From positions 682,001 to 746,000 of the forward strand of contig NZ_JALPRP010000001.1 of the NCBI RefSeq assembly GCF_023195915.1: a stretch of 64,000 nucleotides of DNA, given 5' to 3'. A program made the translations under genes and the position numbers. This document shows positions 15,247 through 29,407 of the stretch, one piece after another. The notes below the pieces were generated by a model, which saw only the letters and a program-made list of their open reading frames with translations, had not been told where the DNA came from and did not search any database. Each line of letters opens with the position of its first letter. Position 1 is the first letter of the stretch. The DNA is from Methanoculleus sp. 7T (GTDB lineage: Archaea; Halobacteriota; Methanomicrobia; Methanomicrobiales; Methanoculleaceae).

Positions 15247-15651
15247 TCATCCGAAGTACAGGTCGCCGTCTTCGTTGATATAGACCTCAACGTCCTCGCG
15301 GACCTGCCTGCCCCTGAACCGGTCGGGATTCGCGTCCCTGAGCCGATTGATGAGCGAGATGGTGTCGTACTTGACCTTCACTCCCATCTTCTCGGCTTCG
15401 GTGTAGATGATCTCGGGAGCCTTGAGCAGGTCGAGGCCGCCCGGGAGCGTGCAGAGGTGTGCGGCGTCGAGCGTGTAGAGAAACTCAAGCGTGTCACGTG
15501 CACGTGCAATGTTCTCGAGAGCGGCCTTCTCGATAGTACAGACGTTTGCCTTAGACGTATGGATAATCTCTGCGATCTGTTGCTGCGTCAACCCTTTCTT
15601 TCGGTAGCGCAGTACTTCCTTCTGGCGATCGGTAAGCAGACCTTGTTTCAT
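15247..15651 (-). CDS. tfx: Tfx-family transcriptional regulator
   Basis: 134 residues from MKQGLLTDRQKEVLRYRKKG. An N-terminal LuxR/sigma70-like helix-turn-helix (LTQQQIAEIIHTSKANVCTI) is followed by an acidic C-terminal domain ending NEDGDLYFG, the layout of archaeal Tfx. In Methanothermobacter, Tfx binds just downstream of the promoter of the fmdECB (molybdenum formylmethanofuran dehydrogenase) operon. Here it is divergent from mtd with 142 bp between, so it may regulate C1-pathway genes (inference). Seven extra codons upstream are open, but the ATG at 15651 matches the family N-terminus and lies about 25-30 bp from a TATA-like TTTAAATTTAA near 15675-15690, suggesting a short leader. Confidence 0.88.
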   Translation of the reverse strand: MKQGLLTDRQKEVLRYRKKGLTQQQIAEIIHTSKANVCTIEKAALENIARARDTLEFLYTLDAAHLCTLPGGLDLLKAPEIIYTEAEKMGVKVKYDTISLINRLRDANPDRFRGRQVREDVEVYINEDGDLYFG

Positions 15652-15737
15652 CAAATATATATATGGACACATTAAATTTAAACACTTTTCCTTAACAGCC
15701 CCTCTCGAACCGGGTTTTTTCGGGCTATTTCAAAACG

Positions 15738-16816: not shown

Positions 16817-17752
16817 TTAACGACTGCCTAAACGCCTGAAAAGAGGTCCTAAGTCTTCAGGGAGCGTCAGGATGACCGGCTCAAGGTGCAGCCGCTCCAT
16901 GAACGCCGAGTCGCACATGGAGAGGCTGTTTGGGTTCAGCCGCGAGATCAGCGAGCAGAATACTCGGTGACCTCGCCCCGCCGTCCCCGGGGCGTCGAAG
17001 AAGATCGAGGCGTTGAAAGCATGCGTCCCGAGGCTCCGGTAGAAGTCGATGATGCGAAGGAGCCCGTCGACCAGCGGCTCGATGTAGGGTCCGAGTTCGG
17101 CAAGCGTCGATATCGGCAGGATCCCCCGCACCTCCCGTTCACCGAGGGGGACCGGGCTTGCCGACCAGAAGATCTCGTCCTCAAAGAGGAACCGGCCGGA
17201 ACAGCGCTCGCGCTCCGCCAGGTCGTCCCAGTAGAGGCGGCCGTGGTCGGCAAGATACCGGCGGCCTCCGGCGATATAGAGATCGGCAAGGCGGGTCGGC
17301 TCGGGGTCGGCGATGCCCTGGAGGTGCGGATGGACGATGCTCGCACCGGCCGAGGGAAGATAGTTCCAGTTGATGCTCGCATACCCTGAAGACCGAACAA
17401 GGGCTTCTGCGGTGCCGGATATGGCGTCGGCGAGGCACCGCTTATCGAACCGATCGGGCGCATGGTCGGGCGTGATCACTGTGACCACGTGATGCTCGGC
17501 GAACGGATAGAGATTGGGGAACGTCATGCTCTCTCCGCACCGGAGCCGACTGCCGTCCGCGAACGTCGGAGTGGAGGTAGTTATGGCCCCAGGGCAGAAC
17601 GGGCAGCCTTTGCGGGAGGCAGGCATGGCAGGAGCGGTATTGATCTGCCGTTCGACCCGGACGGGACTTATTCGGCACCGAATGCCGGTGAGGGATTCGC
17701 GGCGGTACTGGAGGATCCCTTGTTCCGTCCGGATCTCATGGATGGTGAACAT
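16817..17752 (-). CDS. Galactose-1-phosphate uridylyltransferase-like protein (HIT superfamily)
   Basis: 311 residues. An N-terminal CPFC motif (zinc-type, about residue 50) and the active-site HPHLQ near residue 143 (HxHxQ) mark the GalT/nucleotidyltransferase branch of the HIT superfamily. It probably transfers a nucleotide to or from a sugar phosphate; the substrate cannot be read from sequence. A TATA-like TTTTATACGG at about 17784-17793 gives a short leader. It is located between mtd and mer but has its own promoter and no visible metabolic link to them. Confidence 0.8.
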   Translation of the reverse strand: MFTIHEIRTEQGILQYRRESLTGIRCRISPVRVERQINTAPAMPASRKGCPFCPGAITTSTPTFADGSRLRCGESMTFPNLYPFAEHHVVTVITPDHAPDRFDKRCLADAISGTAEALVRSSGYASINWNYLPSAGASIVHPHLQGIADPEPTRLADLYIAGGRRYLADHGRLYWDDLAERERCSGRFLFEDEIFWSASPVPLGEREVRGILPISTLAELGPYIEPLVDGLLRIIDFYRSLGTHAFNASIFFDAPGTAGRGHRVFCSLISRLNPNSLSMCDSAFMERLHLEPVILTLPEDLGPLFRRLGSR

Positions 17753-17915: not shown

Positions 17916-18908
17916 TTAGACAATGTACTTGCCGAGCAGGCGGATGGAGTTGGTCATGTCGGGGCCGAGAGGCGAGCCGAAGATGATCTGGGTAACTCCA
18001 GCCTTGGTGAGGTCTTCGCACTTCTGCTTGACCATGTCGGGGGTTCCGGCAATGGTGAAGGCGTCGATCTCCTTGTCGCCGACAAGGCCGCCGACGGTCT
18101 TGAAGTCGAAGCGCCCGAGGGCTTCCTTGATCTTGGCGACGTTGTTCATGTCGAGTCCGTGGCGCTGGAGAACCGGGGGCGGGGAGCCTGCGGCGATGAA
18201 TGCGGCCACGATCTTTGCGGCGTTCCGGGCCTTCTTCTCGTCCTTGTCGATGGACATGGCAGTGTAGGCGCCGACGTCGAACTTCTTCTTGTCGACCGCC
18301 GCCATTGCCTTCTTGATGATCGGGATGGCGATCTGGAAGTCCTTGGGGTTGGACGCGTTGATCAGGGCTCCCTCACCGATTTCACCGGCGAGCTCGAGCA
18401 TCTTGGGTCCCTGGGCACCGATGTAGACCGGGATGCCCTTCTTGCCGGGCAGGGTGACGCCGGTCAGCTTGGCACCGTCGTAGTCGAAGAACTCCATCTC
18501 TCCGGTCTTCTTGACTTCCTCACCGGCGAGGAGCTTCTTGATCTGGACGACACCCTCTTTCAGGCGGGCGACGGGCTTTGCGGGGTCGATGGCAAGCTTC
18601 GGGAGCGTCGAGAGGTCACCGGGTCCGATACCGAGGACGGCACGTCCGTCGGAGATCTCGTTTAAGGTAGCCATGAAGGATGCAATGGCTGCCGGGGTGT
18701 CGGTGAACGTGTTCATGATACCCGGTCCCATCTTGATGGTGTCGGTGTTCGCCGCGATCATGGCGAGGGTCGGGTATGCATGGCGGTTGTTGTAGTGGTT
18801 GGTAATCCAGGCAAAGTCGATATCCTTCGACTCTGCAAGCTTGGTGTAGGTTACCACCTGCTTGACATTGACTGCTCCAGGCACAAATTCAATTCCATAT
18901 GTAGTCAA
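17916..18908 (-). CDS. mer: F420-dependent methylenetetrahydromethanopterin reductase
   Basis: Reduces methylene-H4MPT to methyl-H4MPT with F420H2, the step after Mtd in CO2 reduction. 330 residues of the luciferase-like TIM-barrel family: TTYGIEFVPGAVNVKQ at the N-terminus, GRAVLGIGPGDLSTLPKLAI in the middle and IIFGSPLGPDMTNSIRLLG at the end. The start codon is TTG, supported by GAGGTG 8 nt upstream and by the family N-terminus. A strong TATA box lies about 40 bp upstream. Confidence 0.97.
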   Translation of the reverse strand: MTTYGIEFVPGAVNVKQVVTYTKLAESKDIDFAWITNHYNNRHAYPTLAMIAANTDTIKMGPGIMNTFTDTPAAIASFMATLNEISDGRAVLGIGPGDLSTLPKLAIDPAKPVARLKEGVVQIKKLLAGEEVKKTGEMEFFDYDGAKLTGVTLPGKKGIPVYIGAQGPKMLELAGEIGEGALINASNPKDFQIAIPIIKKAMAAVDKKKFDVGAYTAMSIDKDEKKARNAAKIVAAFIAAGSPPPVLQRHGLDMNNVAKIKEALGRFDFKTVGGLVGDKEIDAFTIAGTPDMVKQKCEDLTKAGVTQIIFGSPLGPDMTNSIRLLGKYIV

Positions 18909-19264: not shown

Positions 19265-21142
19265 ATGCGAGTGCTGGCGATCGGGTTGGGTGGCGCCGGG
19301 TCACGGATTGTGGATAAACTCCACGACCACGACCGGCGAAGTAAAGTCTGCTGCATGAGTGCGGTAGCAATCGACATCGACCCGAACTCCCTCGTGCAGC
19401 TCCGTTACCTCCCTGACCCCGCCAGGATCTTCTTTCCTCCCGTCGACGCTATAGACCCGGGCGACATCACGAACTTGATCGATATCGAGGAGGTGATGAC
19501 GCGGATCCAGAGCATGGATACGATGGAGATCGATGCCATTCTGCTCTGTTGCGGACTCGGGGGTAACGTCATCGATATCGCCCCCCTCATCATCGAGGAG
19601 ATCCGGAAGTCCTACGTGGAGCCGCTCTTCTCTCTCGCCGTCCTGCCGTGTCTGGACGAAGGGAAGCGGGTCTCGGCCAAAGCCGCCGACGATCTCGACA
19701 TGCTCCAGGAACTCACCGATGCCGTCATCCTCTTCGATAACGAGACTTGGTCGCAGAAGATCAAGGCCGCGGCAGCTGCGGACGAGAAGGAAGATTCCGG
19801 CCTCGTGGGTCAGATACGCCGGAGCCCGCTTACTCAGGGACTGAACCCGAGGACCCACTACGATATGCTCAACGAGCGGATCGCCCGCCAAATCGGCCTT
19901 CTCCTCCGCGCAGGGGAGTTCAACGAGTTCGGCATCGACGCCGCCGAGGTGGTCCTCGATGCCGGAGAAGTCCTCAACACCCTGAAAGGGATGGGGTTCG
20001 TCGCGGTCGGCTACGCGACCGAGCGCCTGCCGGCCGGATGGCTGGACTTCATCTACCGGCGGCGGTCGCTGAAGTACTTTATCCAGGGTTCGCACGAGAA
20101 AGCCGCCCGAATCGTATCGCTTGCCAAGAAGGCGGTCTACGAAGAGGTATCGGTTCCCTGCGACCTGACCAGCGCCGAGAAGGCGCTGGTGCTGATCGCC
20201 GGCCCATCGGCGGAACTCTCGATGAAGGGGTTCCAGACGGTCAGAAAGTGGATCGACCGGAGCATCGCGGGGCTTGAGATGCGATCCGGCGACTACCCGG
20301 TGAAGAACACGTCGTTCGTCGGGATCATCATCGTACTCTCGGGATTGTCCAATGTCCCCCGCATCGAGGAGATTCGGGAGATTCGGACCGAGTATCGGCT
20401 TGAGTGCGAGGAGGAGCGGCTGAGAGCCGAGGAGGAAGAGCGGCTGCGTGAGGAGGAGGCAAACAGGGTGCCGGAGGAAGAGGACGCACCGTACTTCGCT
20501 TCCCCCCTCGAATCAGCGTTTCTTGAGGAGAGCGGCTACATGGCAGAACCTACAGCAGAGAAGGATGAGATGATCGAGTTCGCGGGCGGCGGCCGGAGCG
20601 ACCAAAGAAGCAAGGACGATACCATCGATATGCTCCCGAAGGCCGAGAAGAAGCAGGACGACGGGGCTATCATCCTCCCGCCGAAGCCGGGCGGGAGGGT
20701 GGTCGACCTCGCCGGGTCGGCCTCGGTCTCCTCGTCTGTGCCTGCGCCGAAGAATTCCGTCTTCAGCCCGAAAGGGATCAGCATCGATAAGACAGCCCCG
20801 AAAGACGATGCAGTGGTCTACTCCGCATCGGTACAACCGGTGCAGCGCCCGAAGGACGGGGCGCTCAACGGCGATACGGTCTCGCTCGACCCCGGACTGC
20901 GGCCGAGCGACGGTATTCTCGACGAGCCCGGCCTCCGCATGAGGGGAGCGGCCCCAGCGCCGAAGGACAACCTGCTCGGCCATGCCGGGAGAGGCCTTGA
21001 CCGCGGCGGCCCCCGGCCGAAGGAGGTCGATCCCTCGCGCGGCAGGCTCGAGGTGATCGACGCCGTCAAGCAGCGGCCGGAGAGCCGGGATAAGAAACCG
21101 GAGGAAGACCAGGGCAGCGACGGCGGAATCACCTGGATGTAA
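19265..21142 (+). CDS. Non-canonical FtsZ/tubulin-superfamily protein with long repeat-bearing tail
   Basis: 625 residues. Residues 1-365 look like an FtsZ fold. GLGGAGSRIVDKL at 7-19 matches the first nucleotide-binding loop. LPCLDEGKRVSAKAADDL near 127-144 and FDN at 157-159 match the FtsZ core. LTSAEKALVLIAGP at 301-314 matches the C-terminal subdomain. The tubulin signature loop GGGTGTG is replaced by CGLGGNVID (96-104), so GTP binding or hydrolysis may be altered. A charged coiled coil (about 366-410) leads to a 200-residue disordered tail with recurrent PKD/PKG/PKE motifs. It is transcribed divergently from mer and converges with nrpR, overlapping by 14 bp. It belongs to the family only broadly; a cytoskeletal role is inference. 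Confidence 0.75.
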   Translation: MRVLAIGLGGAGSRIVDKLHDHDRRSKVCCMSAVAIDIDPNSLVQLRYLPDPARIFFPPVDAIDPGDITNLIDIEEVMTRIQSMDTMEIDAILLCCGLGGNVIDIAPLIIEEIRKSYVEPLFSLAVLPCLDEGKRVSAKAADDLDMLQELTDAVILFDNETWSQKIKAAAAADEKEDSGLVGQIRRSPLTQGLNPRTHYDMLNERIARQIGLLLRAGEFNEFGIDAAEVVLDAGEVLNTLKGMGFVAVGYATERLPAGWLDFIYRRRSLKYFIQGSHEKAARIVSLAKKAVYEEVSVPCDLTSAEKALVLIAGPSAELSMKGFQTVRKWIDRSIAGLEMRSGDYPVKNTSFVGIIIVLSGLSNVPRIEEIREIRTEYRLECEEERLRAEEEERLREEEANRVPEEEDAPYFASPLESAFLEESGYMAEPTAEKDEMIEFAGGGRSDQRSKDDTIDMLPKAEKKQDDGAIILPPKPGGRVVDLAGSASVSSSVPAPKNSVFSPKGISIDKTAPKDDAVVYSASVQPVQRPKDGALNGDTVSLDPGLRPSDGILDEPGLRMRGAAPAPKDNLLGHAGRGLDRGGPRPKEVDPSRGRLEVIDAVKQRPESRDKKPEEDQGSDGGITWM

Positions 21143-22091
21143 CGTCCGCTATTCTTTCAAACGGTACGCTTCCGGCGCCGATCTCGGTCCTGACGGCGTA
21201 GCCTTTCTCGATAGCGTTCCCCACCATGTTCATGCCGGAAAACGCGACGATGGGGAGCCGATAGGGGTGTTTCGGGAGGTTGAACTCCCCGATGCCGTTT
21301 TCGGCAGGGAATATGAACCCCCACTCTGCCATCAGGCCGACGGCTTCCTCAACTTGTTCCCGCGCAGCCGCAGGCACCTCGCGGACGTTTGCAAGCGCTA
21401 CGCCGGCCCGGGTCGTCACCAACCGGTTGATCGATGTGAGTCCGGCGGATATGAAGAGGTGGAGGGGGTCGACCGATGTTCCCCGGTAGCCGATAAGGTC
21501 GAGGAACCCGGCGGAACCGCCGTCGACGGCAATCCTCCCCGCGTACTCAAGCCTCGCCGGTATGCCCATCTTCTGGAGGACGCCGTCCAGCGTGACGCTG
21601 CAGGCGGTCATGATCCCGGTATGCCCTTCCGGTATGCGAGGGTCGGCATCGACGATCCGGTAGGTGTTCAGGAACCCGTAGCCTGCGGCGGCCACCTCAT
21701 CGAAGGCTGCCGTGACGCCTGCCAGGTCTTCCTCGCGCACGATGGAGAGGTTGTAGGCGACGCTTCCCGTGCCGGCCGTCGGGTCGAAGTTGCTCCGGAA
21801 TGCGAGTTGCTCGAGCCTCGATATGATGAAGCCGATCCGCTCGTCGACGAGCGCGCTCTCGCTCTCGGCGATGCCCGCCTCGGTGAGAACGCGGCCCCGG
21901 TTCCCGATCTTCTTCGTAAACCCCATCTCGTCGAGGTACTGGAGGTAGTACTGGACCGCACGGTCGCTCAAGACGAAACCCCGCTCCGCCATCTTCTCGC
22001 TTAACCTCTTCGCGCCCAGAGGTTCGTGCGATTCCGCAAGGATCCGCAGGATCTCAAGGTATTTTCGCTCCGAGCGTATCGGCGGGCTCAT
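21129..22091 (-). CDS. NrpR-like transcriptional repressor (HTH + one NrpR/DUF128 domain)
   Basis: 320 residues. The N-terminal winged helix (residues 5-65, RILAESHEPLGAKRLSEKMA) is followed by one NrpR regulatory domain of about 245 residues (YNLSIVREEDLAG, IPEGHTGIMTACSVTLDGVL, PLHLFISAGLTSINRL). NrpR represses nitrogen-assimilation genes in methanogens and senses 2-oxoglutarate. One HTH plus one NRD resembles the NrpRI form. No nif or glnA gene is in the window, so its targets are unknown. The start overlaps the dcd stop as ATGA, so it is co-translated with dcd. Confidence 0.85.
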   Translation of the reverse strand: MSPPIRSERKYLEILRILAESHEPLGAKRLSEKMAERGFVLSDRAVQYYLQYLDEMGFTKKIGNRGRVLTEAGIAESESALVDERIGFIISRLEQLAFRSNFDPTAGTGSVAYNLSIVREEDLAGVTAAFDEVAAAGYGFLNTYRIVDADPRIPEGHTGIMTACSVTLDGVLQKMGIPARLEYAGRIAVDGGSAGFLDLIGYRGTSVDPLHLFISAGLTSINRLVTTRAGVALANVREVPAAAREQVEEAVGLMAEWGFIFPAENGIGEFNLPKHPYRLPIVAFSGMNMVGNAIEKGYAVRTEIGAGSVPFERIADVTSR

Positions 22092-22680: not shown

Positions 22681-25600
22681 TTATTCGAGCAGGATGTAAT
22701 CCTTCCGCTCTCCTCCGATCGTGATATTCCTGCAGATGTCCCAGGCGTCCGGCGCGTCGGGCGCGGTGGCATAGACCCGGACCGCGTACTCGCCGGGCGG
22801 GAGGGCCCGGGCGTCGAGCGTGGTCTCCATCCGGCTTACACCGGGGGGAGACGTCAGGGTGTCGAACCGGATCCACGTGTATCCGCCGTCGCCGGAGTAG
22901 GAGACCTCCTGCAGGGCCTCTTCCGTCCCGGTGTAGTTCAGGTCCCAAACGAGCGGGAGGAACTCGGCGGCCGGGGACGTGCAGTTGAGGTTGGCGACGT
23001 TGAGCGACCGGGCGTCCATGGTGGTGTTCTCCTCGCCGAACGCCGTGATGTAGACGCGCGGGAGCGGCACCCGGTCATGGTCGTTGAAGGTGATGGTCGC
23101 GCCGTCCCCGAAGAGGCCGATCGTGCCTTCGGCGAGGACCCTGAGTCGGAAGGTCGCTTCCCAGGTCTGGTTGAGGCGGATGGTGCCGATATCGAAGTGC
23201 AGGGTCTGGTTCTCCCGCCAGGCGGCGGTGTCGTCACGGGTGTATGGGGGGACGATCTCTGCCGTGCTGTTGTAACTTCGTATCAGCGTGGATGCTCCCT
23301 CTTCATGGACGTAGTCGAAGATCCGGTTACCGGGCACCGGGGCACTGTCCACCTCCACGTTCTCGAAGGCGACGTCCATCGCGGTGTTGACGCCGGCCTC
23401 GGTCTTGAGCCTCTTGGCAATCGCTTCAAATGCCTGCTCGACCATAACATGGTTGCCGGCAAAGAAGTACTCGCCGCCGGACTCGTTCGCCAGGCCGCGG
23501 GGGACATTCTCCTGTGCTTGGGATCCGCTCCCTGTATAGTAGATCGGGAAGATCTGGATTCCCTTACTCTTTGCGTACTTTGCCAGATTCTGTTGTCCTC
23601 CGAGATCATCGAATGGAACGTATTTCGTTGAATCCGGCCCGCAATCCGCCGGGTTGGTAACCGCAGATCCGCCGGCATCCGGTCCGAACGGGCTACCATA
23701 GTAATTATACCGGCTCTGCATCAGGACGATGATCGCTCGCACGGAGTCCTCGCTGCTCGGGGGAGTTGCCTCCAGGGTTTTTATCGCCTTATACAACCCG
23801 TATCGGAGCGGAGCGCTCGCCTCCCCAGTCTGACCGTTCTTCATCGGCACCACACTCCAGAGCGAGTCGTGGATGGCAGGTGAGTTTCCCGGAACCAGGT
23901 CGTTCCTGAGATCGGCATAATCGCTGTACCAGATCTCGCCGTTACCGGGATAGTGTTCCTGAACATAACCTTCATCACCGCTTGGATTCCCATCTTTCCC
24001 AGCATCTTTGGCCCAGTTATAACTCTCAGGCAGTTTCAGGATATCGACTTTGTTGCCCGTATACGGCGGGCATGTGGGCTTGTCTCCATATGATATGAGG
24101 CCGACACGGTTGTTCTGCCAGCGGCCGATATCGGTGTCGATATACCAGGTGAAGTTTTCGGCTGCTGCGCGGGCATAGACCATCCGGTCATCAGCATCGC
24201 CTTCGTCGTTCAGGAGCATCCCCTCTCCCCGGTCAAGGAGGATGACCACGTCGATGGGTGCATACCGGGGGATTGCCCAGCCGTCGCCCTTTAGCCGGAT
24301 GGTGACATCGACTGTGTCGTTCACTGTGACCACATCAGGGGTGACATTCGTCGTGATGGCGAGGTAGGGGTAGTTCACCCACGTGAGGGCGATGGAGCGC
24401 TTGATATCCTTCCACGCCGCGACGACCTTGCAGGTGCCGGTCGCGGTCGGGCTATAATTGAGGGCGCTACGCTCGGTAGTGAACGCGCCCGGGGTGAACT
24501 CTACGGACGCGATGCCGTGTGCATCGGTTGTGGCGCTCTCTCCGGAGAGCGACGGGGGCGTGGTCTGGTTAAAACAGTCGTCTACGACGACATGTTGTAT
24601 CGAGAACCCGACGTTCTCGCCCTCGACCGGGTTGCCGAACTGGTCGACGACCTTCGCCCGTATGACCACCGGAGCAGAGCCGGGCACATCCCTGCTCGGC
24701 ATCGTCTCGGGGCAGGTGGAGAGGAGGAGGTTCACCGGGTCGCTGCTGACGAACGCGAGGTCCTGCAAGCAGGTGACGGAGGTGTTGTCGACGGCGGTGG
24801 CCGTGACGGCGACCCCGCCGGTCGTCTCCCGCGGTCCGTAACTGACCTGCGCGCGGCCGTAGACGTTCGTCGTCACCAGCGTCGCCTCTTCGCCGCTCAC
24901 GTTCGTGACGATCGCAAGCGCCCGTCCTGCGGACGGATTCCCGTACTCGTCGAGGAGCGTGTAGGTGAGGAGAAACCGGCTCGACCCGTCGGCAATCACG
25001 CCGGGAGGGTTTCCCCCGGGCTGGACGTCGACCAGAATTGCGCAGGGCTCTCCGTTTGCCACGCCGCGTATCGTCAGGTAGCGGTCGGGCAACGGTTCGG
25101 GCGGGCTGACCACGACGATGTTCTCGCCCGGCAGTGTATCGACCCTGAGCGTTATGGTGGCGTTTCCGGCCGCGTCCACGCCGACATCGGCGCCGTCGAG
25201 CGCCGCGGCGCCCGAGGGCGAGCCCACCATGAACGTCACGGTCTCGGCCTCGCGCCGACCATCCACCGGGTTACCAAACCGGTCCACCATCCGGACGGCG
25301 ATCTCCGTCGTCCCCCCGGCGGTCACCTCCGGCTCGTACCAGATGTTCTCGACCTGGTAGGGAGCCGCGTGGTCGATCCGCTGCAGGAACGTCTCCTCCC
25401 ACACCGACACAGCTTCCCCGTCACGGTGTGATACCGTGACGGTGATCGGCGCATCCCCGGCGACGGTCCCGGGCTTGAAGACCGCCGTCGCCATCCCGGT
25501 GGCGTCGGTCGAGGCAGTGGCGTGCGAGATGCTGCCGAAGGTCTCGTCCACCGCAAACTCGACCGCGGCTCCCCCGATCTGAGTGCTTCCGGTGGTGCTG

Positions 25601-25761
25601 TTCTTGACCTGCACCGTTATGGTCGCGGTATCACCGCTCCCTACCGTCAGCCACTCGGTATCCGTGCCGATCGTTACCGCATCGGGTATCAGTGCGCCGG
25701 CCGGGACCGCAAGGAGGAGCAGCCCGGCGATAATCAGGTATGCGGATGTCCATCTCCTCAT
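22681..25761 (-). CDS. Giant secreted surface protein: Ig-like repeats plus degenerate VWA domain
   Basis: 1026 residues from MRRWTSAYLIIAGLLLLAVPAGA, a clear signal peptide. The N-terminal 500 residues form several Ig-like (Big_1/invasin-type) repeats with motifs such as DATGMATAVFKPGTVAGDAP and VDRFGNPVDG. A VWA-like domain follows (about 510-800), but its metal site is lost: DRGEGM replaces the DxSxS motif and MQSR replaces TDG. A beta-rich C-terminus follows with no PGF-CTERM or transmembrane anchor. It is a paralogue of the gene at 26270-29407. The ATG at 25761 is preferred because the open frame upstream has no signal sequence and crosses a TATA box (TTTATATA near 25796-25803). Probably extracellular adhesion or envelope function (inference). 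Confidence 0.8.
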   Translation of the reverse strand: MRRWTSAYLIIAGLLLLAVPAGALIPDAVTIGTDTEWLTVGSGDTATITVQVKNSTTGSTQIGGAAVEFAVDETFGSISHATASTDATGMATAVFKPGTVAGDAPITVTVSHRDGEAVSVWEETFLQRIDHAAPYQVENIWYEPEVTAGGTTEIAVRMVDRFGNPVDGRREAETVTFMVGSPSGAAALDGADVGVDAAGNATITLRVDTLPGENIVVVSPPEPLPDRYLTIRGVANGEPCAILVDVQPGGNPPGVIADGSSRFLLTYTLLDEYGNPSAGRALAIVTNVSGEEATLVTTNVYGRAQVSYGPRETTGGVAVTATAVDNTSVTCLQDLAFVSSDPVNLLLSTCPETMPSRDVPGSAPVVIRAKVVDQFGNPVEGENVGFSIQHVVVDDCFNQTTPPSLSGESATTDAHGIASVEFTPGAFTTERSALNYSPTATGTCKVVAAWKDIKRSIALTWVNYPYLAITTNVTPDVVTVNDTVDVTIRLKGDGWAIPRYAPIDVVILLDRGEGMLLNDEGDADDRMVYARAAAENFTWYIDTDIGRWQNNRVGLISYGDKPTCPPYTGNKVDILKLPESYNWAKDAGKDGNPSGDEGYVQEHYPGNGEIWYSDYADLRNDLVPGNSPAIHDSLWSVVPMKNGQTGEASAPLRYGLYKAIKTLEATPPSSEDSVRAIIVLMQSRYNYYGSPFGPDAGGSAVTNPADCGPDSTKYVPFDDLGGQQNLAKYAKSKGIQIFPIYYTGSGSQAQENVPRGLANESGGEYFFAGNHVMVEQAFEAIAKRLKTEAGVNTAMDVAFENVEVDSAPVPGNRIFDYVHEEGASTLIRSYNSTAEIVPPYTRDDTAAWRENQTLHFDIGTIRLNQTWEATFRLRVLAEGTIGLFGDGATITFNDHDRVPLPRVYITAFGEENTTMDARSLNVANLNCTSPAAEFLPLVWDLNYTGTEEALQEVSYSGDGGYTWIRFDTLTSPPGVSRMETTLDARALPPGEYAVRVYATAPDAPDAWDICRNITIGGERKDYILLE

Positions 25762-26269
25762 ATGCCTTCGCAAGGGGACATTGGAGTGATTCTCTATATA
25801 AATATAGAGTATTAAACAAAACCATTTTATTAGGCATTTTAGTATTTCTCTAATAGAAATCGACTGTTTTGAATAATGTTCAAGACGGCGGCACGATCTT
25901 CGAACAGATCGAGCAGAGGAATCACGAACATGGCATCGTTCGTTTCCCAACCGGGAAACGACCGTTCCCGGACTCGCGAGAAACTCGTTGCAGAAGAGGT
26001 TACCATTCGGGAGCCGATCTGGGCCGGACCGAGCCGTTGGAGGGCATCCGAAATGCGATCGCCATGATGTAAGCCTCCAGAGTACGATCGCCCCGGAAGG
26101 TGTGCTTTAGGAGGTAGTAATTAACCAGCTCACCTTTGAGATGATTACTTGACAATATAGAACTTGTTCTGAGTTTAATTTGGTTAGGATAACAGAGTTA
26201 GACGGCTTTGTCGTTCTTTCCCTCAAAAAATAGGGCGTAGTTTTGGAGGGAGTTTTTAGGGGCAGAAGA
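25762..26269. other. Intergenic gap between the two giant surface genes
   Basis: It holds the promoter of the downstream-lying gene (TATA at about 25796-25803) and a T-run near 26226-26231 (minus strand) just after the next gene. A GC-richer block at about 25870-26100 has short open frames on both strands, but none has a recognisable product or ribosome-binding site. It may be a decayed gene. Confidence 0.4.
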
Positions 26270-29200
26270 TTATGCGATTCTGATATATGCCCGGTTCCCC
26301 ATCCCCACCGGAATAACATCCCCATAGGTCACTTCGTCGCTCACACCTTCAGGAATATTTTCATATGCCGAAACCTTGATCCTATACCAGCCTCCCTTAT
26401 CCCCAAAGTCAAGGTGGGATGAATACGTACCGTTAATATCTGTTTCCGAAGGATGGTGTTTCGTATCGGCCACATGCCAAGTGCCGTCCCACCAGACATT
26501 ATCCTGACTGAACTGGTACATGACCTCCTGTATTACGGATCTGTTCCCCGTGTAGGTGAGACCCCAAGAGGGAACAAGGATGCCAGGTCCCTCAGTGGAA
26601 ACGGTGAGAGAATCCAACCGGATATCCGGCGTGCCGGCGTTAGTCTCTTCGAGTACCAGACTGGCAGTGATAAATGTGTGGGGAAGACCCAGTTCCGTCT
26701 TGCCCTGGGTGCCGTTGAACCGGATCTTGGAATTGCTGCCGAAGATATCGATGTTCCCCTCTTTTAAGACCTTCAGGCGGAAGGTCGTCTCCCAGGTCTG
26801 GTTGAGGTAGATGTCCCCGACATCAAAAGTGAGGACCTGGTCGTCCCAATCACTGCTCTGGTCATAGGAAGCCGGCCCCCAGAATACCGAACCGTTGTTT
26901 GTCCAGTATTTAACTTCCCGAGTCGAAACCGGAGCCATAGGTTCATACTTAAAGACGTCGCGCATGGGCGTCGAATTGATCGCGACGTTATCGAACACCA
27001 GATCCACCGTAGTATTGACGCCAGCCGCCTCTTGGAGTTTCGTGGCGATGTCTTCATAGACCCGCGTCAGGTCATCACCTGCCGTGGCGCTGTAGAACTT
27101 ACCGCCGGTCTGGTTGGCATAACTCTCGAGTTCATCGTGGCTTGGTTCGTCACCGAGGGCGATCGTGAAGATTTTGATGCCATTGTTTTTTGCATAATCG
27201 ATGACACTGCCGGTCCCGACCACAGGGAACCTTGTGGCGTCCTGACCACCCTCTGGATTTCCACCCGTGTTCCACTCCCCATCGGTCAGGAGGACGATCG
27301 CCTTCACAGGATTGTCCGTTCTTGGGTTCTCCAGGATCATCCGCACGGACCGGTACAGTCCCTCGCGCATCGGCGTTCCACCGCAGGGGAGCCAGTTGTC
27401 AATTGTGGTGTTGACGTTCTGGTAGTTTTTGGTCAGTTCGAGGTCGCGGGTGGCAGGACCATTATAATTTTGCGGGTTTTTGTAGTGAGATGCTATATAT
27501 TCGTTATCATCGCTCGAATCGGATCTCCACTTACCATTACTCCATTTGTAGTCATTACCAGCCCAATACTTATATCCATAAGCCTGCCACCCGCCATAGG
27601 GCGAATATGTATATTTATCAAGGTCTGTATAATCCGAATTACCAAATGATACTAATCCTACCCTGTCCTTCGATGGCTGCATCTGATATGTGAAATTCTT
27701 CGCCGCCCGCATTGCATGGACCATACGGTCATCAATCGATTCTTGCTTAATCCATTCACGGTCACGACTGTTATAGCCAGAAACTGTAGTAGTATTCAGC
27801 AACATACTCCCCGACCGGTCGGTGCAGAGCACCACGTCGATCGGTCTCGACTGGAGGGCCCAGCCGTCGCCGATCAACTGAACCGTGACGTTCACGCTGC
27901 CGTTCACGGCTACCGACTGGGGCTCAACGGAGGTCCTGACGCTGAGGTAGGGGTAGTTCCTGAAAGATACTGTAGTATTCTCCCGCTTATCATTCCAGAT
28001 GGCTTGGATCGTTGCATTTCCCGAAGCCATGTTGCTATACCTAGGATCGGACGTATCCCGGGTAAATTTACCGGGATGGAAATCAATTGCAGCAAATCCG
28101 TCCATATCGGTCATAGCAACAAGAGCTATGCCGATCCCCCCGTAGGTGTGGGTGCCGTTCGAGATCTCGGGCCCAGCAGTCATCGTACATCCCCCATCGT
28201 TGACCTCAACAATTCTGAATGAAACGCTTTCGTTTCGAACAGGGTTCCCCTTTGAATCCATTACTTTCGCCCTGATCGAAGAGACAATATCATCTTTCAC
28301 ATCCCTGCTCGCGATGGTCTGGGGGATGGCAGTGAGGAGCATATCGGTCGGGGTAGTGCTGTAGAAGCCGACCCTCTGTGTGCACGAGACACTGCTGTTA
28401 TCAACGGCGGTCGCGACTATCTCAGCGACACCGGCCCGGGTAGACGGGCCGTACATGATCTGCGCCTTGCCCTGGCTGTTTGTTGTAACAAACCACTCAC
28501 CCGATGTCAGGGATCCAGAGACCGACCGGATGTTTACTTTTATCTGCCGGTTACCGGCAGGATTGCCATACTCGTCATAGAGGGCGTAGGTGATGGTGAA
28601 CTGTCCGTCCAGCGAAAGTTCGGGATAGTAATCAGGATTCGGATCCTCAACTTTTGGGGACACAGTCTGATAGATCTTTGACGGTTCTCCGTTCGCAAGC
28701 CCATTAATGGTCAGATAACGCGACCCGATGTCTCCGGGAAACGTTACGAGAACAATATTCTCCCCGGCCGCCGTGTCGACCCGGAGCGTCACGGTAGCGT
28801 TCCCGGCCGCATCGACCGGCACCGTGATCTCATCCGTACCGCCGACAAACGCCGCACCCCCCGCAGGCGAGCCCACCATGAACGTCACGTTCTCGGCTAC
28901 GCGCCGGCTATCTACCACGTTCCCATAGCGGTCCACCATTTGGACAGTGATATCCGTCGTCCCCCCAACGGTCACCTCCGACTTGTACGAGAGATTAGCG
29001 ATCGTATTCGGGGCCGCATGATCGATCCGCTGCCGGAACGTCCCCTCCCGCACCTGTTCGACCTCTCCGTCATGGTACGAGGCGGTCACCGTGATCGGTG
29101 CATCCCCGGCGACGGTCCCGGGTTTGAAGACCGCCGTCGCCTTTCCGTCAGGGCCGGTCACCGCATGCGCGGGGGATATGCTGCCGAAGGTGCTGTCCGC

Positions 29201-29407
29201 TGCAAAATCGACGGCGACTCCCTCGAACGAGGTGTTGCCGGAGGTGCTGTTCTTGACCTGCACCGTGATGGTTGCGGCATTGTCGCCCCCCGCCGTCAAC
29301 CACTCGGAACTCGTGCCTATATCGATGTTATCAGGAATCTGTGCGCCGGCCGGGGCAGCGAGAAGGAGCAGCCCGACGGCAAGGTACGCATACGTCCATA
29401 CTTTCAT
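26270..29407 (-). CDS. Giant secreted surface protein: Ig-like repeats plus VWA domain with intact MIDAS
   Basis: 1045 residues starting MKVWTYAYLAVGLLLLAAPAGAQ (signal peptide). Four or so Ig-like repeats (VDRYGNVVDSRR, LYDEYGNPAGNRQ, VMDSKGNPVRN) precede a VWA domain with an intact metal-ion site: IDVVLCTDRSGSM and VLLTDGEWN. A beta-rich C-terminal part follows, ending IPVGMGNRAYIRIA without a membrane anchor. It is closely similar to the neighbour at 22681-25761, so a tandem duplication is likely. The segments near 27.45-27.7 and 27.96-28.3 kb look more AT-rich than the rest. TTTATATATG at 29438-29447 and GGTGGAG before the ATG support the start. Confidence 0.85.
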   Translation of the reverse strand: MKVWTYAYLAVGLLLLAAPAGAQIPDNIDIGTSSEWLTAGGDNAATITVQVKNSTSGNTSFEGVAVDFAADSTFGSISPAHAVTGPDGKATAVFKPGTVAGDAPITVTASYHDGEVEQVREGTFRQRIDHAAPNTIANLSYKSEVTVGGTTDITVQMVDRYGNVVDSRRVAENVTFMVGSPAGGAAFVGGTDEITVPVDAAGNATVTLRVDTAAGENIVLVTFPGDIGSRYLTINGLANGEPSKIYQTVSPKVEDPNPDYYPELSLDGQFTITYALYDEYGNPAGNRQIKVNIRSVSGSLTSGEWFVTTNSQGKAQIMYGPSTRAGVAEIVATAVDNSSVSCTQRVGFYSTTPTDMLLTAIPQTIASRDVKDDIVSSIRAKVMDSKGNPVRNESVSFRIVEVNDGGCTMTAGPEISNGTHTYGGIGIALVAMTDMDGFAAIDFHPGKFTRDTSDPRYSNMASGNATIQAIWNDKRENTTVSFRNYPYLSVRTSVEPQSVAVNGSVNVTVQLIGDGWALQSRPIDVVLCTDRSGSMLLNTTTVSGYNSRDREWIKQESIDDRMVHAMRAAKNFTYQMQPSKDRVGLVSFGNSDYTDLDKYTYSPYGGWQAYGYKYWAGNDYKWSNGKWRSDSSDDNEYIASHYKNPQNYNGPATRDLELTKNYQNVNTTIDNWLPCGGTPMREGLYRSVRMILENPRTDNPVKAIVLLTDGEWNTGGNPEGGQDATRFPVVGTGSVIDYAKNNGIKIFTIALGDEPSHDELESYANQTGGKFYSATAGDDLTRVYEDIATKLQEAAGVNTTVDLVFDNVAINSTPMRDVFKYEPMAPVSTREVKYWTNNGSVFWGPASYDQSSDWDDQVLTFDVGDIYLNQTWETTFRLKVLKEGNIDIFGSNSKIRFNGTQGKTELGLPHTFITASLVLEETNAGTPDIRLDSLTVSTEGPGILVPSWGLTYTGNRSVIQEVMYQFSQDNVWWDGTWHVADTKHHPSETDINGTYSSHLDFGDKGGWYRIKVSAYENIPEGVSDEVTYGDVIPVGMGNRAYIRIA

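Follow-up and report, generated by a model that had tools for sequence, protein, structure and literature searches.

A CetZ paralog of the Methanomicrobiales with a rebuilt GTP pocket, a retained T7 face and an FtsZ-like tail end

Results

Locus and distribution of the gene

The gene analyzed here lies in the 2.6-Mb genome of Methanoculleus sp. 7T (Methanomicrobiales). All coordinates refer to the window, the whole stretch of 64,000 nucleotides that was analyzed. The reading frame, which encodes 625 aa, had been described by an earlier sequence-only reading, which gave its position and strand correctly. The gene and its direct neighbors are:

17916 to 18908, minus strand: mer, the divergent neighbor, adjacent to the gene in the majority of the orthologous loci sampled
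19265 to 21142, plus strand: pseudo-GTPase CetZ paralog of 625 aa (open reading frame with the Pfam domains CetZ_C and Tubulin; orthologs across the Methanomicrobiales)
21129 to 22091, minus strand: NrpR-domain regulator, the convergent neighbor, followed by dcd

Ortholog matches were present in 148 of the 150 genomes of Methanomicrobiales and in each of the 108 with a completeness of at least 90%; for a few incomplete genomes in this count, the match listed may be the canonical paralog. Among the 106 genomes with a completeness of at least 95%, CetZ_C genes were present in all and two or more of them in 105. The CetZ_C matches listed in these 106 genomes split into a strong canonical group and a weaker divergent group. 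The genome of strain 7T itself encodes four proteins with a tubulin domain: FtsZ1, FtsZ2, a canonical CetZ of 388 aa and the 625-aa protein.

Most sampled loci show the same gene order, with mtd, a GalT-like reading frame and mer on the divergent side and an NrpR-like gene and dcd on the convergent side. In Methanocorpusculum-type genomes mer and dcd are partly kept or located farther away. The synteny extends to the most divergent ortholog with 37% identity, and the orthology of this gene is confirmed because the locus order is retained there. A published Methanoculleus transcriptome reports up-regulation, under stirring or shaking, of a block that comprises VWA-protein genes, mer, mtd and a tubulin-like CetZ (PMC12008871); the up-regulation is reported for the block and not stated for cetZ itself. 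Judged by gene content, this block is probably the locus of the CetZ paralog.

Several neighboring genes are also recurrent. The reading frame between mtd and mer (16817 to 17752, minus strand) keeps its position over most of the order; its CPFC and HPHLQ motifs look like those of a GalT/HIT-type nucleotidyltransferase, and searches of Pfam and NCBIfam gave no match. A Tfx-type DNA-binding regulator (15247 to 15672, minus strand; TFX_C 2.5e-31) adjoins mtd and keeps this place in most sampled loci. Downstream of the CetZ paralog a tandem pair of genes (22681 to 25950 and 26270 to 29407, minus strand) encodes large proteins of surface type; both have Ig-like repeats (Big_1/Invasin_D3), and the second also contains a VWA domain. 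Similar surface-type genes are located downstream of the locus in many relatives.

The protein belongs to a separate group of CetZ paralogs

Pfam assigned residues 3-164 of the 625-aa protein to the Tubulin domain (E 7.7e-10) and residues 197-373 to CetZ_C (E 4.6e-44); the latter match (PF21011) reached 150.5 bits compared with a curated cut-off of 21.6. In a sequence search of the PDB the nearest entries were CetZ1 (7e-53) and CetZ2 (7.6e-30) from Haloferax volcanii. The AlphaFold model is folded from residue 1 to 400 and disordered from about 400 to 625. Its top Foldseek matches were CetZ1 (4b46, TM 0.87 by target length), CetZ2 (4b45, 0.88) and a Methanosaeta CetZ (3zid, 0.79), which gives the model the GTPase-domain fold of tubulin and FtsZ with CetZ structures as its nearest relatives. 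The core had previously been taken for FtsZ. We rejected this identity, since the FtsZ equivalog model of NCBIfam (TIGR00065) scored 29.7 bits compared with a cut-off of 295.2 and the C-terminal domain matched CetZ_C; Pfam, the PDB search and Foldseek all identify the core as CetZ.

In a tree of the C-terminal domain, whose sampling left out Thermococcales CetZ, 46 canonical CetZs from four groups formed one clade (SH-aLRT 96). The 625-aa protein was placed outside this clade, as were both degenerate groups, that of the Methanomicrobiales and that of the Archaeoglobales described below. On the combined evidence of sequence and model, the protein is a member of a separate group of CetZ paralogs, and the family assignment is well supported. 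The sequence-only reading had named clear membership in a well-characterized family as the outcome that would speak against it. The CetZ family is known indeed, but the subgroup is uncharacterized and lacks the nucleotide motifs of CetZ.

The nucleotide pocket is rebuilt

To describe the pocket we aligned 77 orthologs with 55 canonical CetZs; the genomes were those of Halobacteria, Archaeoglobales, Methanosarcinales-type archaea and Methanomicrobiales, some of these group labels being assigned from kinship and CetZ counts. All following counts refer to this alignment.

19283 to 19306, plus strand: T1 loop GLGGAGSR (glycines in 77/77, Gln replaced by Gly in 74/77)
19367 to 19390, plus strand: T2 loop AIDIDPNS (canonical Asn replaced by Asp37 in 76/77, Ala by Asp39 in 72/77)
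19436 to 19477, plus strand: T3 site, shortened in the alignment, with the motif of canonical CetZ (KGHGVGxDNxxGA) gone
19550 to 19585, plus strand: T4 remnant CGLGGNVIDIAP (one-residue deletion in 77/77, GLGG kept)
19643 to 19693, plus strand: T5/H5 region (Glu132-Gly133 retained and near-invariant)
19733 to 19750, plus strand: T6 motif FDNETW (FDN at residues 157-159, Asn in 77/77)

The canonical motifs are present in all or nearly all of the 55 comparison CetZs. In the orthologs the T3 lysine is found in none of 77 sequences, and the GxDNxxGA half of the motif is gapped in 68-77 of them. The GTGSGG stretch that follows GLGG in canonical T4 is gone, with its residues retained by at most 3 of 77 orthologs. 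In the NAAR motif of H5 the Asn is changed to Lys139 (Lys or Arg in 70/77, Asn in 0/77) and the Arg to Asp142 (Asp or Glu in 70/77). Over T2, T3, T4 and the T5/H5 NAAR motif, most canonical residues occur in 0-4 of the 77 orthologs; at two aligned T3 positions the canonical residue is present in up to 14.

By this alignment the loss of the canonical pocket is fixed throughout the order, in all 77 orthologs, and is well supported. The pocket appears to be rebuilt and not merely decayed, because the replacements Asp37, Asp39, Lys139 and Asp142 are themselves conserved. The conservation of T1, of the Glu-Gly pair in T5 and of the T6 asparagine, which would be needless without a ligand, counts against the pseudo-GTPase reading given below. 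A sequencing error or a recent pseudogene was rejected as an explanation, since the changes are common to the 77 orthologs and dN/dS is low.

These results agree in several points with the sequence-only reading. It had recognized a rebuilt hallmark GTP loop, and T4 indeed reads CGLGGNVIDIAP instead of GLGGGTGSGG; the features it listed as kept are present as GLGGAGSR (first Gly loop), DEG...SAKAADDL (EG-R-A-L region) and FDN. Its proposal of a relative of the tubulin superfamily with an altered nucleotide site is borne out by Pfam, by AlphaFold and Foldseek and by the 77 orthologs. The description was incomplete, as the loss of T3, the H6-H7 insert and the conserved end peptide went unmentioned.

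The T7 face and the C-terminal domain are conserved

The following features lie between the pocket motifs and the tail:

19757 to 19855, plus strand: variable H6-H7 insert, not present in canonical CetZ (alignment); the least constrained part
19853 to 20404, plus strand: CetZ C-terminal domain (PF21011), the most constrained part
19949 to 19990, plus strand: T7 (catalytic) loop VVLDAGEVLNTLKG (Asp232 in 77/77, Glu235 in 76/77)

With these frequencies both the T7 Asp and the catalytic Glu of CetZ are retained. Glu235 aligns with Glu218 of CetZ1 (numbering of the 4b46 alignment), the T7 residue that Duggin et al. reportedly mutated in 2015. Pairwise dN/dS was lowest in the C-terminal domain (0.07-0.13), followed by the N-terminal domain (0.12-0.21), the tail (0.19-0.34) and the H6-H7 insert (0.32-0.49). 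Judged from these ratios, purifying selection is acting on the protein, most strongly on the C-terminal domain.

A repeat tail ends in an FtsZ-like peptide

20363 to 20461, plus strand: acidic helix or possible coiled coil (residues 367-399; AlphaFold helix at about 365-400)
20747 to 21064, plus strand: six degenerate PKD-type repeats of about 15-19 residues each
21116 to 21139, plus strand: C-terminal peptide SDGGITWM, which resembles archaeal FtsZ C-terminal peptides

A long disordered tail with recurring PKD-type units had been proposed before, and both parts of this description hold. AlphaFold predicts disorder from about residue 400 to 625 with a pLDDT of about 35-45. The six repeats are PKNSVFSPKGISIDKTA, PKDDAVVYSASVQPVQR, PKDGALNGDTVSLDPGLR, PSDGILDEPGLRMRGAAPA, PKDNLLGHAGRGLDRGGPR and PKEVDPSRGRLEVID. 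Strict triplets of Pro, Lys/Arg/Asn and Asp/Glu occur four times in the tail compared with 0.8 expected from shuffles, and 294 times over 65 ortholog tails compared with 52 expected; the recurrence is not due to chance because both counts exceed the shuffled expectation. The repeats of relatives follow a more regular pattern: their spacing is exactly 15 in the tails of Methanocorpusculum type, and in the other tails it is often 15-19. A beta-solenoid fold of the repeats was rejected: a long repeat tail modelled alone gave a pLDDT of 45, a pTM of 0.10 and no secondary structure. The length of the tail in the orthologs ranges from none to about 760 residues, with seven examples among those that have no real tail.

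The last nine residues fit the pattern hydrophobic-x-F/W-hydrophobic in 53 of the 65 tails with at least 60 residues (0.4 expected from shuffles); many of these tails come from close relatives, and outside the close Methanoculleus set 20 of 31 also fit. More than half of the tail tryptophans (56/84) fall within these nine positions. The end peptide reads GI(T/D)W(I/M) in most long-tailed orthologs, with GITW in most Methanoculleus and GIDW in some orthologs, and is missing from the Methanocorpusculum-type tails. Within the same order FtsZ1 ends in IDFLK, IDFMK or IDFLR and FtsZ2 in IDFL, IDFI(R), FDWIM, VDWVM or LEWVG. Archaeal FtsZ end peptides center on a nearly invariant GID motif, and SepF of M. 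smithii binds the FtsZ peptide NEDQLDDFIDGIF (PMC8178401). Each of the 21 genomes checked contains a SepF gene. For H. volcanii, pull-down linked SepF to FtsZ2 only (PMC8187382), which counts against SepF as a tether of the CetZ paralog. The partner-binding role suggested earlier for the tail is plausible, and the sequence of the conserved FtsZ-like end peptide strengthens it.

The canonical CetZ of the Methanomicrobiales also has a conserved acidic-hydrophobic end, DDGIEPLFE (16 sequences), which resembles the GID motif of archaeal FtsZ. Given this ending, filaments of this kind may more widely carry acidic-hydrophobic end peptides.

A second degenerate CetZ in Archaeoglobales

Archaeoglobales genomes contain, beside a canonical CetZ, a second CetZ of about 310 aa (ten sequences). 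Like the Methanomicrobiales paralog it combines a degenerate pocket with a T7-type Asp, the C-terminal domain and a canonical partner. Unlike that paralog it has lost T1 and T6 in addition to T3 and T4, has no tail and lies among other neighbors. By profile scores it lies slightly nearer to the divergent group of the Methanomicrobiales (108 bits) than to canonical CetZ (79 bits). We rejected it as a syntenic ortholog, as neither mer nor mtd is located nearby. The degeneration in Archaeoglobales is independent or ancient; long branches blur the distinction between a single and separate origins.

Discussion

A possible role at filament ends

Active sites in tubulin-superfamily filaments are formed by two adjacent subunits: the nucleotide bound by one is covered by the T7 loop of the other, which completes the site. 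One-sided assembly would be the simplest consequence of a protein in which the T7 side is retained and the nucleotide side is dismantled. We tentatively propose, as a reading that is quite possible, that the pocket-dead CetZ uses its T7 face to dock on a filament end of canonical CetZ or of FtsZ, with its tail as the tether. The intact T7 face would bind a subunit of canonical CetZ (or FtsZ) at the end that carries the nucleotide, and the protein's own nucleotide face would be unable to hold GTP normally, so that the next subunit could not be added in the usual way. The pseudo-GTPase CetZ might then act as an end cap, a brake or a nucleating end-piece of CetZ filaments and not form a polymer of its own. 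The tail would serve as a long flexible tether, its repeats could form weak, multivalent contacts, and SepF or a similar membrane-bound partner may be the target of the GI(T/D)W(I/M) peptide at its C-terminus. Points against this model are the members without a real tail, the Methanocorpusculum-type tails in which the end peptide is missing, the GIT in place of GID in Methanoculleus and the related ending of canonical CetZ. Rather than decaying, the gene has the appearance of a conserved cytoskeletal regulator.

An extension of this reading, which we consider rather doubtful, is an order-wide obligate pair in which the canonical CetZ is the GTPase and the pocket-dead partner contributes only its T7 face together with a SepF-type tether. 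The logic would be comparable to the division of labor between alpha- and beta-tubulin or that of gamma-tubulin, and the Archaeoglobales would represent a parallel or ancestral case.

Unlikely in our view, and a little more so than the obligate pair, is a non-polymerizing scaffold or adaptor whose tail and C-terminal domain act on partners of the surface, the envelope or division without any capping of CetZ. The variable length of the tail beside a highly conserved C-terminal domain would fit such a protein, as would the up-regulated block with VWA-protein genes, if it is the same locus. A pure adaptor has no use for the T7 Asp/Glu pair, however, and 76-77 of 77 orthologs retain it. The near-invariant T1 glycines, Glu132-Gly133 and FDN could also mean that the protein is an active divergent CetZ, assembling into filaments of its own and binding GTP or GDP through T1, T5 and T6. 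This is clearly improbable, given that T3 and the T4 GTGSGG, which hold the phosphates, are absent in 77/77 and the T5/H5 Asn is found in 0/77; the Archaeoglobales counterparts lack even T1 and T6.

The conserved residues of the pocket might also point to a different ligand, perhaps a dinucleotide (NAD(P) or F420, for instance). The pocket has a Rossmann-like appearance, with GxGGAG following strand 1 and an acidic residue closing strand 2; Asp37, Asp39, Lys/Arg139 and Asp/Glu142 are conserved, and the F420-using mer and mtd adjoin the gene over most of the order. The GGAG form is shared by FtsZ T1 loops, though, including FtsZ2 of the same genome. The Rossmann likeness is a resemblance only; no dehydrogenase fold occurred among the 50 best Foldseek matches, and the gene adjacency may reflect chance history. 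We regard this explanation as the least probable of those considered here, and hold to T7-mediated docking at filament ends as the working model.

Relation to known tubulin-superfamily proteins

The best-matching PDB proteins, CetZ1 and CetZ2 of H. volcanii (4b46, 4b45), share CetZ_C, the T7 Asp/Glu pair and the C-terminal domain with the 625-aa protein. In contrast to them, this protein has lost T3 and T4, has replaced the T2 Asn and the T5/H5 Asn and Arg, and has gained the H6-H7 insert and a repeat tail of more than 200 residues. ARC3 combines an FtsZ-like domain with an extra C-terminal part. In plant chloroplasts this relative of the tubulin superfamily restrains FtsZ assembly (PMC13335998). 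The likeness would lie in the way of working; the tail of ARC3 differs and its target is FtsZ. Archaeal FtsZ1 and FtsZ2 combine a variable linker with a conserved, SepF-binding end peptide (I-D-F/W-I/L), an arrangement that the tail of the 625-aa protein resembles, but the core of our protein is CetZ. FtsZl1 and FtsZl2 are likewise divergent members of the superfamily, and the absence of key motifs from some archaeal FtsZ paralogs was noted by Makarova and Koonin in 2010 (PMC2875224). FtsZl1 contains a coiled coil, its C-terminal domain is alpha-helical and its operon partners are of vWA/GTPase type, whereas the 625-aa protein has a CetZ_C domain.

According to the parts of Brown and Duggin (2023) considered here, each Methanomicrobiales and Archaeoglobales genome has two CetZs, one of them deep-branching, and a deep "non-Halobacteria-like" group comprises Archaeoglobales, Methanomicrobiales and Methanosarcinales (PMC9856176). 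The 625-aa protein almost certainly belongs to this group as those parts describe it. They contain no mention of lost GTP loops, a long tail or an end peptide, and differ from our results in two respects: few neighborhood similarities are reported for Methanomicrobiales (3 genomes), whereas we observed strong synteny, and the group includes Methanosarcinales, whereas the Methanosarcinales-type CetZs sampled here retain the canonical pocket. In the open literature searched we found no account of a CetZ without a GTP site. Archaeal paralogs poor in motifs are an old idea; an order-wide pseudo-GTPase CetZ with a retained T7 face and an FtsZ-like tail end appears to be undescribed there.

CetZ function is known mainly from halophiles, and the annotation "CetZ" in a genome need not mean a GTPase. 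The loss of the phosphate loops together with the retained face that completes a neighbor's site offers a handle on the control of filament ends in archaea, and the same paralog one on the origin of tubulin-type heteropairs. The FtsZ-like end peptide could connect the biology of CetZ with that of the division anchor SepF.

Divergent CetZs also occur in haloarchaea. Eight of these sequences show altered T2 or T4 loops, for example AFDTD and VGVGGAAGGG. They were rejected as members of the present group, as they score higher with canonical CetZ and their T4 has the canonical length. Some of the genes are located in near-tandem with a canonical CetZ.
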